From Clostridia bacterium (GTDB lineage Bacteria > Bacillota > Clostridia > Oscillospirales > CAG-382): 35,471 nt of DNA. A program made the position numbers and the translations under genes. The stretch lies in the NCBI GenBank assembly GCA_017397805.1, contig JAFQHW010000032.1, positions 1 to 35,471 on the forward strand. Reading direction: 5' to 3'. The number at the start of each line of letters is the position of its first letter. Position 1 is the first letter of the stretch. Below the pieces are notes generated by a model. It made no database searches. It was given only the letters and a program-made list of their open reading frames with translations, and was not told where the DNA came from. Shown in pieces: positions 7,378-35,471 of this stretch.

Positions 7378-7417
7378 AGGCTGTATTGAATGCGGTATCT
7401 TGCATTCAATACAGCCT
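7378..7417 (+). terminator. Large hairpin after dnaJ, 5' border of repeat A1
   Basis: A perfect 16-bp stem: AGGCTGTATTGAATGC (7378-7393) and its complement (7402-7417) with an eight-base loop, 18 bases after the dnaJ stop. It lacks a U-run, so it may act as a 3'-end stabiliser or transcription pause. It directly abuts the family A repeat. Confidence 0.5.
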
Positions 7418-7643
7418 CAAGCTGATGACAAAGTTTGTCATCAGCTTGGCAGAGTACCGAGAAAGAGCGCAGACAAGACGAACCGAGGCGAGAACTGTAC
7501 TTTGTACTGTGAGCCGAGGTTCGTTTTGAACGAAAAAATATAACAAAATGCAGAAAAATAAGGAGGCTCGCCTCCTTATTTTTCTTCTTCATTATGTTTG
7601 TTTGTTTTCTTTTTCGTGCTCTGTGCCTTTGTCAGTGGTCTGA
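7417..7643 (+). repeat. Family A structured repeat, copy A1
   Basis: About 227 bp, repeated at 10962-11228 (minus) and 20429-20657, with a remnant at 35240-35303. Modules in order: an almost perfect palindrome AAGCTGATGACAAA/TTTGTCATCAGCTT (7419-7447); the block GGCAGAG...GAAAGAGCGCAGAC; a long stem ACGAACC...GGTTCGT enclosing a GTAC hairpin; TTCGTT/AACGAA; a strong hairpin AAAAATAAGGAGGC/GCCTCCTTATTTTT (7554-7583); and a T-rich tail ending GTCAGTGGTCTGA. Ends are weakly inverted (TCA..TGAC against GTCA..TGA). No open reading frame is conserved among copies. It lies in the same orientation as the gene before it. Confidence 0.85.
7554..7588 (+). terminator. Terminator-like hairpin inside A1
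   Basis: A 14-bp perfect stem with a two-base loop and T-rich 3' side (TTATTTTTCTTCTTC). It has intrinsic-terminator form and could end the dnaK-dnaJ transcript. The mirrored A-run allows function in both directions. Confidence 0.6.
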
Positions 7644-7661
7644 CGGGGCTGAGATCAGCCC
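7644..7661 (+). terminator. Short GC-rich hairpin at the 3' border of A1
   Basis: GGGGCTGA and TCAGCCCC pair perfectly around a two-base GA loop, directly after the GGTCTGA end of A1. It is followed by GATTCTTC, so termination would be weak. It fits the pattern of a hairpin at each end of family A copies. Confidence 0.4.
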
Positions 7662-7702
7662 CGATTCTTCATGTCTTGCGAAAATATCAACAGTAGGTGC
7701 AT

Positions 7703-10635: not shown

Positions 10636-10949
10636 GAGGCACACTCCGCAAGGAAGTGTGCCTCAACTAAGTTTGCCCTATCGGGCAAGTGAAGTTTCGC
10701 CCGCGGCGAAGTGGGCAAACTTAACTTCACTTGGGTGTAAACCCATACTTCACTGCAAGTAAAACGAGCAACTTCACTTTTGCGTAAGCAAAACTTCACA
10801 TAACGAGCCGAAGAACTATGTGACTAATTCTTTCGGTGGATATTACCTTTCTCAAAGTATGTAACCTACTATGCCACTTTCACCGGCTGAAAGTGTCATT
10901 TTCTCTTTAATACAGAAGAATGGAGACAACTTCCTTACGAAGTGTCTCC
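10636..10949 (+). repeat. Element C: hairpin-rich insertion with AACTTCAC motifs
   Basis: 314 bp without a gene, bounded by two related hairpins in opposite orientation: GAGGCACACT/AGTGTGCCTC (10636-10664) and GGAGACA/TGTCTCC (10922-10949), which share the core ACTTCCTTRCGRAGTGT when one is inverted. Inside are four octamers AACTTCAC or TACTTCAC starting at 10723, 10746, 10770 and 10792 (steps of 23, 24 and 22), separated mostly by small hairpins (GGGT/ACCC, TTTTGC/GCAAAA), and a nested stem AAGTTTGCCC/GGGCAAACTT (10669-10722). A CACTTTCA/TGAAAGTG hairpin with a T-rich tail is at 10875-10908. It is flanked by TTT on both sides, consistent with a 3-bp target duplication in the terminator loop. 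Confidence 0.65.
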
Positions 10950-10961
10950 TTTTAGGGTGGA

Positions 10962-11228
10962 TCAGACCACTGACAAAGGCACAGAACACGAAAAAAAGAA
11001 AGAATACTACTATTTAAAGGTAGAAAATTCAGGGGAAATCCCTGAATTTTCTACTTTTTATTATAGTTTTTCGTTCAAAACGAACCTCGGCTCACAGTAC
11101 AGAGGTACAGTTCTCGCCTCGGTTCGTCCCGCGGGGTCCCCGTTGCGAACGAAGTGAGCAATGGGGTGGTGTGAGCACTCTTTCTCAGCACTCTGCCAAG
11201 TTGATGACAAGGTTTGTCATCAACTTGA
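10962..11228 (-). repeat. Family A structured repeat, copy A3 (with internal insertion)
   Basis: Reads on the minus strand, that is, in the orientation of the PLP-enzyme gene ending at 11257. The first palindrome has the compensated change AAGTTGATGAC/GTCATCAACTT (A1 and A2 have AAGCTG/CAGCTT). The GAAAGAG block is followed by about 50 foreign bases (about 11111-11160, GC-rich), then the usual ACGAACC/GGTTCGT stem, a different variable hairpin (GTAGAAAATTCAGGG and complement, 11020-11054), and the conserved tail ending GTCAGTGGTCTGA. The longer total (267 bp) is explained by the insertion. Confidence 0.82.
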
Positions 11229-11256
11229 TCCACCCTTTTAGGGTGGATATTTTTAT
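11227..11256 (+). terminator. Intact terminator hairpin reading rightwards
   Basis: ATCCACCC pairs with GGGTGGAT around TTTT-A, followed by ATTTTTATTTATTT. The U-run is on the plus strand, so it fits the rightward ackA transcript. It also lies directly after the stop codon of the convergent PLP-enzyme gene. The same arms occur, split, at 10621-10635 and 10950-10962. Confidence 0.7.
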
Positions 11257-18690: not shown

Positions 18691-20394
18691 ATGTATTGCG
18701 GAAAATGCGGCACGAAATTAAATGACAACAGTAAGTTTTGCCACGGTTGCGGAAACAAAGTAGACCGGTCGGGGGATTTGGATACCGTTACGTCCTATGC
18801 CGCACCTGAGCCCCAAGCGGAACCTGCACCCGTATATGCACCTGCTCCCCAAAACGCGCCCAAGAAAAGTAAGGCGATGCTTATAACGGTAATATGCGTG
18901 GTAGTTGCGCTTTTAGCCGCCGCAGGCATTATTGCTTGGCTTGTTTTCGGCGGTGACGGTAAAGCTCCTTCAAAGGATGAAAGCTCAAAAGAAGCTATCT
19001 TTACGGAATCCGAAGAAAGCAGTGAAGAAGGCAGTGAGGAGCTTTCGGAACAGTCTTCTTCCGAGGAGATATTCGTGCCCGATTACGATATTGAGGGCGA
19101 GTGGTGTTGCGAGCTGAAGGACGAGTGGGTTTCCGAGCTTAAAGCATATACCACCTGCCAGCTCTTGCTTGCTTTTGACGGCGAGGGGAATTTCATCTAT
19201 ACTCAGACCGTAGCTTATAACGGCAAGATGGAAAAAGAAGAGCTTGAGGGCACCTACGAGATAAAAGAGCTTATAGAATGCACCGACCGCGAGGGCAAAG
19301 TGGAATACTTTAAGTACGAGGACGGCAAGATATATCACGTGGATTCCGACGGCGAGCCCATGGATGCGTTTGGCACTGAGTTGGTTTTTGAAAGCGGAAG
19401 CGGCACCATAGATAATTGGGACGAGCTCGTTAACGCAGTTCCCACGGCGGCTGAAATAGAGGGCGCGTGGACTTACGAAATAGTTGAGGAATGGAATGAA
19501 GACTATCAAGCTTACATAAGCTATCAGTTCTGCTTGGTGTTTTATGAGGACGGTGAGTTGATAGCTTTCAACGGCGCCGCCGCAAGCGTGGACGGTGTTG
19601 AATATACCGAACCGAATTCGGAGGCCTTGTCTGCCGAATACACCATAACAGACGAAGGTGTAATCGAATGTGATTACGAGGGTGACCTTTTGTACTTCAA
19701 GTATGAGGAAGGGAAGCTTAAAGGTGTTGACGAAAACGGCAACACCTTGGTTTGGCTGTTCGGAGAAGCCTTGGTGCTTGAAAGAGGATACGGCACTTTA
19801 GGTTATTTTGGTGAAGCAGAAGACGGCTCCACTGACGAAAGCGCCTTGGAAATACAGCAGAATTACGATTACAACTTCGATATGACCGTTAAGTATAACG
19901 TGGAGATAGAGGTTAAGGATTACGGCGTGATCAAGCTGGAGCTTGACCCCACCTGCGGCGCCCCCATAACCGTTGATAACTTCCTCACCTTGGTAGAGGA
20001 CGGCTTCTATAACGGTCTTACCTTCCACCGCATTATAGGCGATTTTATGATTCAGGGCGGCGACCCCAATCACGATGGTACCGGCGGCAGTGACAAGGAA
20101 ATTTTGGGTGAGTTTGAGCAAAACGGTGTTAACAATACTCTGAAGCACGGCCGCGGCGTTATCTCCATGGCAAGAGCCACGCCTTTTGACAGCGCCAGCA
20201 GTCAGTTCTTTATCTGCCACAGCGACAGCTTGAGCGTTCAGTCCCTTGACGGACTATACGCAACCTTCGGCATAGTTACCGAGGGGATGGACGTGGTGGA
20301 TGCAATCGTTGCGGATGCCGAGCCTACCGACAGCAACGGCACCATTACCTATGCAGACCAACCCGTTATAACGGAGATACGGATAGTTGAATAG
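18691..20394 (+). CDS. Zinc-ribbon, membrane-anchored cyclophilin-type peptidylprolyl isomerase
   Basis: A 567-residue multidomain protein. Residues 3-20 form a zinc ribbon (CGKC ... CHGC); a Pro/Ala-rich linker runs to about 58; a single membrane helix spans about 62-87; a Ser/Glu-rich linker covers 94-126. Two similar beta-rich repeats follow (about 131-245 and 255-375), each opening with an EGxW block and containing an FxYEDGKI- or YFKYEEGKL-like strand. The C-terminal cyclophilin domain (about 400-567) has FHRIIGDFMIQGGD, GRGVISMA and SQFFI, so the active-site Arg and Gln look intact. Orientation by charge suggests the zinc ribbon inside and the isomerase outside the cell, acting on exported proteins. 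Repeat A2 lies directly downstream. Confidence 0.88.
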   Translation: MYCGKCGTKLNDNSKFCHGCGNKVDRSGDLDTVTSYAAPEPQAEPAPVYAPAPQNAPKKSKAMLITVICVVVALLAAAGIIAWLVFGGDGKAPSKDESSKEAIFTESEESSEEGSEELSEQSSSEEIFVPDYDIEGEWCCELKDEWVSELKAYTTCQLLLAFDGEGNFIYTQTVAYNGKMEKEELEGTYEIKELIECTDREGKVEYFKYEDGKIYHVDSDGEPMDAFGTELVFESGSGTIDNWDELVNAVPTAAEIEGAWTYEIVEEWNEDYQAYISYQFCLVFYEDGELIAFNGAAASVDGVEYTEPNSEALSAEYTITDEGVIECDYEGDLLYFKYEEGKLKGVDENGNTLVWLFGEALVLERGYGTLGYFGEAEDGSTDESALEIQQNYDYNFDMTVKYNVEIEVKDYGVIKLELDPTCGAPITVDNFLTLVEDGFYNGLTFHRIIGDFMIQGGDPNHDGTGGSDKEILGEFEQNGVNNTLKHGRGVISMARATPFDSASSQFFICHSDSLSVQSLDGLYATFGIVTEGMDVVDAIVADAEPTDSNGTITYADQPVITEIRIVE

Positions 20395-20408: not shown

Positions 20409-20429
20409 ACCCGCCTGAAAGGGCGGGTT
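20409..20429 (+). terminator. Terminator hairpin, upstream copy (border of A2)
   Basis: Arms ACCCGCC and GGGCGGGT with a short TGAAA loop, 14 bases after the cyclophilin stop. The 21-base unit recurs exactly at 20659-20679, where it is followed by TTTTTT. Here the U-run has been replaced by the start of repeat A2, so this copy has probably lost strong termination. Confidence 0.7.
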
Positions 20430-20657
20430 CAAGCTGATGACAAATTTTGTCATCAGCTTGGCAGAGTGCTGAGAAAGAGCGCAGACAAGACGAACCGAGG
20501 CGATAGCTGTACATCTGTACTGTGAGCCGAGGTTCGTTTTGAACGAAAAAATATAACAAAATACAGAAAAATAAGGAGGTTCGTCCTCCTTATTTTTCTA
20601 CTTCATTGTATTTGTTTGTTTTCTTTTTCGTGCTCTGTGCCTTTGTCAGTGGTCTGA
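20429..20657 (+). repeat. Family A structured repeat, copy A2
   Basis: 229 bp, closely matching A1 module by module: palindrome AAGCTGATGACAAA with its complement (20431-20459), GAAAGAGCGCAGAC, ACGAACC/GGTTCGT stem, the variable-position hairpin AAAAATAAGGAGG/CCTCCTTATTTTT (20567-20597) and the tail ending GTCAGTGGTCTGA. Differences from A1 cluster in hairpin loops. It lies in the orientation of the preceding gene and is flanked by two exact copies of the gene's terminator hairpin. Confidence 0.87.
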
Positions 20658-20658
20658 T

Positions 20659-20685
20659 ACCCGCCTGAAAGGGCGGGTTTTTTGC
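20659..20685 (+). terminator. Terminator hairpin, downstream copy with U-run
   Basis: Same 21-base hairpin as at 20409, now followed by TTTTTTGC, a classic intrinsic terminator for the cyclophilin transcript. It protects the following MinD-like promoter from read-through. Confidence 0.85.
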
Positions 20686-20802: not shown

Positions 20803-21582
20803 TTGGGCAGAATAATATTTGTCACTTCCTTTAAAGGCGGGGTGGGTAAAACCACCGTGTCCGCTTATATATCGTCAGCTCTTGCCGCCATGGGTAAAAA
20901 CGTTTTGGTGGTGGACGGAGATTACGGTAACCGCTGTATGGACTTGGTTTTGGGTATGGAAAACGCGGCGCTTTTTGACGGGGCAGACGCCATTACCGGC
21001 AAAACATCCGCTAAAAACGCCATCATAAGCCACGATACGGTGGGCAGGCTGTATTTTCTTCCCGCACCCGCGTTTTTCAGCGGCTCCCTTTCACCGGAGG
21101 ATACCTGCGCCTTCTTCGCAAGGCTTAAAGAGGACTTTGACTACGTAATAGTGGATAGCTCTGCGGAGGATACACCCACGTACCGCGCATTTGCCAGAGC
21201 GGCAGAGGATGCGTTGGTGGTAAGCTTGCATCAGTCAACGGCTATCCGCGCGGCGGAGAAAACGGGGGCAATGCTTGCGGAGCTTGGGTTTACCAATATC
21301 CGTTTGGTGGTTAATTGCTTCAACGTCTCGGCGGCGGAGAAAGGCCGGCTTCCTTCCGTGCCGGATATAATAGACAGGGCAAAGCTTCAGCTCATAGGCG
21401 TGATTCCTTGCGACGATAACGTTCCCATTAATCAGGAGCAAGGCTTGTTACCCTTCGTTTCCAAAGGTAAGCTTTTGCCCTACGAGGCGGCTTGTATCAA
21501 TATAGCCAAGCGCTTAACGGAAAAGCGCGTGCCTTTGTTCAAGGACGTGTATAAACCTAAGAAATTAAGAAAATATTTATAA
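20803..21582 (+). CDS. minD: MinD-like ParA/SIMIBI ATPase
   Basis: A 259-residue ATPase. The deviant Walker A KGGVGKTT is at residues 11-18; the MinD-like block RCMDLVLGMENAALFD follows VVDGDYGN, and Walker B is YVIVDSS. The late block QLIGVIPCDDNVPINQEQG is strongly MinD-like. The basic C-terminus (KPKKLRKYL) could bind membrane, but it is not the usual MinD amphipathic helix. MinD positions division or other polar systems; no minC or minE is nearby, so its partner is unknown. The frame opens at TTG 20803, 12 bases after AGGGGGG. An ATG at 20795 lies better placed but in another frame (see findings). The next gene is an mgsA homologue, a neighbourhood I recall from other Clostridia. Confidence 0.75.
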   Translation: MGRIIFVTSFKGGVGKTTVSAYISSALAAMGKNVLVVDGDYGNRCMDLVLGMENAALFDGADAITGKTSAKNAIISHDTVGRLYFLPAPAFFSGSLSPEDTCAFFARLKEDFDYVIVDSSAEDTPTYRAFARAAEDALVVSLHQSTAIRAAEKTGAMLAELGFTNIRLVVNCFNVSAAEKGRLPSVPDIIDRAKLQLIGVIPCDDNVPINQEQGLLPFVSKGKLLPYEAACINIAKRLTEKRVPLFKDVYKPKKLRKYL

Positions 21583-32269: not shown

Positions 32270-32279
32270 AAAGAATATG

Positions 32280-32419
32280 GGTCTGTCTCAAATTGAAATT
32301 TTGAGATGAAACCATATATAAAAGCTACAAAAAAATCAAGGGCATTCAAGCGATGTCCTTGATTTTTTGTTAAGCTTGCACATAACGTTCACAATTTGTT
32401 AATGCTATGAGACAGCCTC
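32280..32419. mobile_element. Family B element, copy B1 (MITE-like)
   Basis: The core 32283-32417 (135 bp) is identical base for base to 35336-35470. It is bounded by inverted CTGTCTCA/TGAGACAG, extending to GGGCTGTCTCA in copy B2. No gene inside. It holds TCTCAAA/TTTGAGA near the left end and a strong hairpin AAAAAATCAAGG/CCTTGATTTTTT in the centre. The ends resemble those of some Firmicutes insertion sequences, suggesting mobilisation by a transposase encoded elsewhere. Confidence 0.8.
32330..32368. terminator. Bidirectional terminator-like hairpin inside B1
   Basis: A 12-bp arm pair AAAAAATCAAGG/CCTTGATTTTTT, extended inwards by CAT/ATG pairing, gives a T-run on both strands. It could end both the rightward transporter transcript and the leftward PHP gene, whose 3' end is at 32465. 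Confidence 0.7.
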
Positions 32420-35196: not shown

Positions 35197-35243
35197 GGGG
35201 CTGTCTCAAATGCAAGGATTGAGCATTTGAGACAGCCCCTTTT
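35197..35243 (+). terminator. Terminator made from family B end sequence
   Basis: A perfect 17-bp stem whose 5' arm begins GGGGCTGTCTCAAAT, the left end of family B, and whose 3' arm is the exact complement; it is followed by TTTTCTTCTTC. It lies 22 bases after the preceding stop codon and is a good intrinsic terminator. Confidence 0.8.
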
Positions 35244-35303
35244 CTTCTTCATTATATTTGTTTGTTTTCTTTTTCGCGCTCCGTGCCTTTGTCCGTGGTC
35301 TGA
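35240..35303 (+). repeat. Family A remnant, copy A4
   Basis: Only the 3' tail of family A remains: CTTCTTCATTAT, the T-rich stretch, CGCGCTCCGTGCC and GTCCGTGGTCTGA. It joins the upstream hairpin at the T-run where A1 and A2 have their variable hairpin, and it is followed by another hairpin (35302-35329). Same orientation as the preceding gene. Confidence 0.75.
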
Positions 35304-35329: not shown

Positions 35330-35332
35330 AAG

Positions 35333-35471
35333 GGGCTGTCTCAAATTGAAATTTTGAGATGAAACCATATATAAAAGCTACAAAAAAATCAAGGGCATTC
35401 AAGCGATGTCCTTGATTTTTTGTTAAGCTTGCACATAACGTTCACAATTTGTTAATGCTATGAGACAGCCC
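35333..35471. mobile_element. Family B element, copy B2 (reaches the window end)
   Basis: The 135-bp core is identical to B1. Terminal inverted repeats are GGGCTGTCTCA and TGAGACAGCCC (11 bp, perfect). Same orientation as B1. The central terminator-like hairpin lies at 35383-35421. The element ends at the last base of the window, so its right flank and any target duplication cannot be seen. Confidence 0.8.

Follow-up and report, generated by a model that had tools for sequence, protein, structure and literature searches.

A dispersed non-coding repeat bordered by duplicated terminator hairpins: a probable IS1182-type MITE in a clostridial genus

The cyclophilin terminator and element A2

The window analysed here is the whole of a 35,471-bp contig (JAFQHW010000032.1) from the draft genome of a Clostridia bacterium. 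It includes a gene for a cyclophilin-type protein whose terminator hairpin stands on both sides of a short repeat, A2, with an ATPase gene following on the same strand. The features at this locus are:

18691..20394, plus strand: host gene, an open frame for a zinc-ribbon and cyclophilin-type peptidyl-prolyl isomerase, whose own terminator is the target
20409..20429, plus strand: left copy of the terminator hairpin, without T-run (exact-repeat search)
20430..20656, plus strand: A2, 227 bp, non-coding, probable MITE of IS1182 type, with dispersed copies and hairpin duplications
20430..20444, plus strand: left terminal repeat CAAGCTGATGACAAA, 12 of 15 positions as in an IS1182 end, invariant or nearly so in the alignment
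20571..20601 (approximate), plus strand: internal hairpin AAAAATAAGGAGG/CCTCCTTATTTTT, variable in sequence, pairing kept between species
20642..20656, minus strand: right terminal repeat CAGACCACTGACAAA (genus form CAGACCGCTGACAAA), 12 of 15 positions in this genome and 13 of 15 in the genus form as in the IS1182 end CAGACCGTAGACAAA
20659..20679, plus strand: right copy of the terminator hairpin, with a T-run ending near 20684 (exact-repeat search)
20803..21582, plus strand: downstream gene for a ParA/MinD-like ATPase, beside a different gene in G001 to G005

The first-pass annotation of this DNA held that an exact hairpin flanks A2 and that only the second copy keeps its U-run, and both statements stand. 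The 21-base hairpin ACCCGCCTGAAAGGGCGGGTT occupies 20409-20429 and 20659-20679 in direct orientation and without mismatch. A search for ACCCGCCTGAAAGGGCGGGTT allowing up to three mismatches finds these two sites in the window and no third, with a chance expectation of 0 (shuffles give none), and the T-run TTTTTTGC follows the right copy alone. Adding two flanking bases extends the repeat to 23 bp with one mismatch (AGACCC.. vs. ATACCC..). After refinement of the repeat limits, A2 proper runs from 20430 to 20656 (CAAGCTG...GGTCTG), and the 227-bp stretch between the hairpins reads CAAGCTGATGACAAA...TTTGTCAGTGGTCTG.

The left terminal repeat forms the first arm of a left-end palindrome at 20430-20460, and A2 folded with its flanks as single-stranded DNA gives a z-score of -15. 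Candidate copies of the element measure 222-310 bp and vary in the middle, where length changes keep no reading frame. An alignment of 18 copies belonging to several species yields 78 predicted pairs, and in 15 of these both partners have changed; the internal hairpin retains its pairing between copies of quite different sequence. Such retained pairing may reflect function, or correction of palindromes during replication. No Rfam family matches A2. Longer variants of 246-334 bp also occur (L124, L129, L160, and others) and carry an extra inserted stem, which is ACCCCATTGCTCACTTCGTTCGCAACGGGGACCCCG in those that were read.

In its own genome A2 has 36 matches among those listed, some of which are its inverted hairpins matching back; its right end, searched as a pattern, occurs at least 34 times. 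The assembly is a draft in which many contigs terminate inside the element. It is abundant in five of the six other genomes of the genus, and the sixth, G002, holds diverged matches only. Outside the genus, two trivial matches were all that turned up in the 53 other genomes of the 60 searched overall. Diverged relatives of the element whose ends differ (..CCGGCC) lie at two G002 loci, L050 and L059, at the latter in tandem. Three further copies lie in the window:

7418..7642, plus strand: copy A1, whose left hairpin (7379-7416) is unlike its right hairpin (7644-7663)
10963..11227, minus strand: copy A3, 265 bp including an additional loop insert; the duplication is complete on the left (11228-11248) and shortened on the right (10948-10962)
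35240..35303, plus strand: truncated copy, right part alone (sequence match)

The right hairpin of A1 is identical to the left hairpin with which contig C70 (L036) ends, and the A1 region (7379-7663) may have been put together in assembly or by recombination. At A3 (10948-11248) another hairpin replaces the missing part of the right duplication.

Hairpin duplication across copies

Stretches around copies of the element were drawn from six genomes. The flanking hairpin is the same on both sides of nearly every copy and different at each locus. Direct repeats in exact register with the element ends are present in 57 of the 73 candidate full copies having both flanks, the window copy A3 with its shortened right duplication included. 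These repeats are 20-38 bp long (median 26), 30 of the 57 are free of mismatches, and the repeats contain a whole hairpin. When left and right flanks are wrongly paired, a mean of 0.12 and a maximum of 1 pass at a threshold passed by 54 of 92 raw entries, in which some copies are counted twice. By inspection, six of the other 16 candidates have two unrelated hairpins and five have hairpins that have diverged; another four are spurious or truncated, and an IS interrupts the last. The earlier proposal that the whole hairpin is a target duplication is borne out by the 57 copies, each with a different hairpin, and by a one-hairpin empty site at another locus, described below.

A different account would make the hairpins part of the element, or have them joined by recombination between copies, with no target duplication. 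It draws on the contigs that break inside the element and on the six copies with unlike hairpins left and right (A1, L019, L068, L077, L081, and L160). These six may themselves be assembly joins; the genomes of the genus are drafts without exception, and many contigs break at these repeats. Against this account, the hairpin is specific to its locus and yet shared by the two flanks in 57 of 73 copies, and one-hairpin empty sites contradict it at one locus; it is judged extremely improbable.

The empty site that the first-pass annotation had predicted for A2, a single hairpin followed by the T-run, is found at this other locus, where the element lies downstream of the same gene in G003 (L151) and G001 (L073). 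When these sequences minus the element and one hairpin are aligned with G002 and G005, both of the latter show a single hairpin and T-run in the corresponding position. The G002 alignment is collinear across both neighbouring genes; that of G005 matches well in the upstream gene and terminator region only and is followed by a cyclophilin gene. For A2 itself no orthologous empty site was found in the genus. The ATPase gene is present in all of its genomes, preceded in most relatives by a ribosomal-protein-like gene, and the cyclophilin gene does not lie upstream of it in the relatives examined; because another gene stands before the ATPase gene there, A2 offers no empty-site comparison. Relatives of the cyclophilin part are present in every genome of the genus, and the cyclophilin protein used as query against the genome contigs recovers a distant relative only.

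Orthologous terminators have been hit in opposite element orientation in different species (L132/L079 and L012/L084), suggesting that terminators have been hit independently more than once. Sequence comparison shows the element to be dispersed and to enter terminator hairpins in either orientation, with a duplication as long as the target palindrome. The retained hairpin and T-run fit an insertion that would be harmless to the gene.

Some duplicated hairpins have changed between their two copies. At L078, L086, and L138 the loop on one side is reverse-complemented relative to the other, either through later template switching or as the trace of a hairpin intermediate. Between the left and right copies at L075 and L084 both arms have changed, and the changes are paired.

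Relation to IS1182 elements

Within the window, 15-mers scoring at least 12 against the IS1182 ends number 5 of 35,456, which may include the ends of the element itself. Among the assemblies of the genus a complete IS1182 transposase gene occurs in G001 only, G000 and G003 having assembled IS ends alone, and the profiles PF05598, PF01609, and PF13751 match essentially one IS in the genus. The IS-end pattern TCAGnCTGTCGAAAAAG is found at 25 places in five genomes, most of them within about 140 bases of a contig end; the IS has therefore been collapsed in assembly. IS1182 ends in G000, G001, G003, and G004 abut hairpins, while one weak match in G002 does not. Six pairs of left and right IS ends share an identical hairpin: one in G000 (C61/C13), one in G003 (C49/C21), and four in G001 (C71/C1, C75/C35, C68/C56, and C42/C77). 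Hairpins belonging to the MITE itself have likewise received IS insertions (G000 C44, and G001 C19 and C50), and in the C19/C50 pair the MITE hairpin lies on both sides of the IS.

Beyond the genus, scoring covered 13 plasmid-borne IS1182 elements, of which 11 had both ends recognisable and usable; the ends of L255 and L272 were not placed, and L249, at the end of its record, was left out of scoring. Exact palindromic duplications of 17-30 bp flank eight of the 11 (L250, L252, L253, L256, L269, L270 from a Bacillus subtilis plasmid, L271, and L274), and two unlike hairpins flank the other three (L251, L254, and L273). Exact duplications occur also in plasmid records described as complete, a further point against recombination between copies. 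Autonomous IS1182 elements, in this genus and in others, thus duplicate whole hairpins as the MITE does, and the first-pass view of A2 as an unusual mobility mechanism has to be modified: the mechanism is not unique to it, since the trait is shared with IS1182 in the genus and with eight of 11 plasmid elements.

No transposase gene with exactly the ends of the MITE (CAGACCGCTGACAAAGG) was found in the draft assemblies of the genus, and the IS1182 ends of G000 (C13, C44, and C61) include none that are exactly those of the MITE. Forty right-end stretches were checked for a farther duplication that would mark an autonomous element with MITE ends, and all of the duplications that could be found lie within 335 bp. 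One 4-kb candidate, in L127, came down to a palindrome of 34 bp that consists of two right ends and is flanked by hairpins unlike each other. Short palindromes CAGACCGCTGAC..GTCAGCGGTCTG, which are two right ends back to back, stand beside terminator hairpins in L127, L174, L179, L186, and L196 (G001, G016, and G024), and also occur in two other genera of the family. We infer that an IS1182 transposase acts on the MITE in trans. A2 is, in our judgement, quite probably a non-autonomous MITE mobilised by a DDE transposase of IS1182 type, for which the shape of the intrinsic-terminator hairpin is the target signal.

A hairpin-rich non-coding element beside terminators might also suggest another mover that reads hairpins, namely IS200/IS605, a REP-associated tyrosine transposase, or a group IIC intron, and group IIC introns prefer terminators. 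To our knowledge, none of the three as generally described makes a target duplication, and duplication is the rule here (57 of 73), in contradiction to such a mover. The element also has no Rfam match and bears IS1182-like ends on both sides, and a mover of this kind is accordingly considered very improbable. REP/REPIN and other palindromic repeats resemble A2 in being short, intergenic, structured, and present in high copy; we know of no description of duplication of a locus-specific hairpin for REP/REPIN.

Target shape, mechanism and published parallels

A DDE transposase links both 3' ends of its element to the two strands of the target, and the spacing of these joints becomes the duplication. 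DDE transposases normally produce duplications of fixed length, the geometry of the complex setting the distance between cuts. The duplications described here follow the hairpin. When the repeats are folded, the outermost pair falls on both repeat ends (offset 0,0) in most, and the duplication runs from stem end to stem end, about one base past the GC-rich hairpin on each side, usually A...T: 48 of 56 repeats begin with A and 49 of 56 end with T. Complementarity extends past the repeat in 32 of the 56 sites, and the cut is therefore not always at the last possible pair. Because of these end bases and the pairing beyond the repeat, what is duplicated is, as a rule, the GC-rich stem with about one adjoining A:T pair.

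The same MITE and the same duplication could arise if the target were read as a duplex, subunits of the transposase binding the arms as inverted repeats and cutting outside them. The base preference at the cut (A...T) accords with this, and relaxed DNA does not readily extrude stems of 8-10 bp. The arms, however, share no sequence between loci, and a cut spacing of 20-38 bp is beyond the tolerance of a sequence-reading dimer of fixed geometry. Duplex reading is thus possible but unlikely.

In the probable mechanism of shape recognition, the palindrome would be extruded as a cruciform or as two strand-wise hairpins, so that its two 5' feet come next to each other at the junction, where the two 3' ends of the element would attack them. 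Each extruded arm would then be copied as the gaps are filled, giving one full hairpin per side, and the distal copy would remain attached to the T-run whichever way the element points, so that the gene would keep its terminator. The 5' feet would be adjacent at the junction for a stem of any length, which would account for the variable length of the duplication; a joint spacing of 17-38 bp that tracks the palindrome suits attack at the 5' feet and not a fixed ruler on straight DNA. A wider proposal, that a branch of IS1182 uses the folded shape of its target as a ruler, attacks the 5' feet, and colonises terminators without destroying them, as autonomous elements and MITEs and in both Bacillota and Fusobacteriota, is somewhat more likely true than false.

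Hairpin targeting by the IS1182 family is already known. IS1272 and TnSha1, members of this family in staphylococci, target hairpins by shape and not by sequence, several of these being confirmed terminators (PMC5678879, PMC4923244); both papers, on hairpin and terminator targeting by IS1182, cite Siguier et al. (2015). What departs from the published picture of IS1272 is duplication instead of loss. IS1272 removes or replaces its target hairpin without duplication (PMC5678879, PMC4923244), and attack at the 3' feet with loss of the hairpin was proposed by its authors (PMC5678879), whereas the A2 family duplicates the whole hairpin; in place of IS1272-type loss, a hairpin stands on both sides in 57 of the 73 candidate copies. 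Whole-hairpin duplication was drawn for IS1272 solely as a hypothetical pathway (Fig 13b of PMC5678879), which is the same scheme as the attack at the 5' feet proposed here. No description of it as a rule was found among open papers, and curators of IS1182 may already be aware of it.

Compared with the IS1182 family as a whole (NCBIfam NF033551), A2 has ends of the CAG..TGTAGACAAA type, inserts in terminator hairpins, and duplicates the whole hairpin as the members examined do, but it lacks a transposase gene, and its subterminal bases differ from those of the IS copies in its own genus. MITEPye1 of Paracoccus yeei, an IS1182-derived element present in 1-3 copies per chromosome, is likewise small, non-coding, and intergenic, with IS1182-like ends and long stem-loops; it differs in its 4-bp duplications, and the available part of its description reports no hairpin target (PMC11578231).

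A cut distance set by the secondary structure of the target would make the reading of extruded hairpins by a DDE transposase in the cell directly testable. It would also explain how the element could reach dozens of gene ends and leave every gene with a terminator. For assembly, contigs that end in matching copies of a duplicated hairpin can be joined; in the genome of A2, this applies to seven of eight left-only contig ends (by inspection).

The window contains two other features outside this family. A second small repeat of 139 bp, 99% identical between its copies at 32279-32417 and 35332-35470, has the ends GGGGCTGTCTCAAA../..TGAGACAGCCC, and the contig end falls within it. A THF riboswitch (RF01831, 78 bits) lies on the minus strand at 2069-2172.
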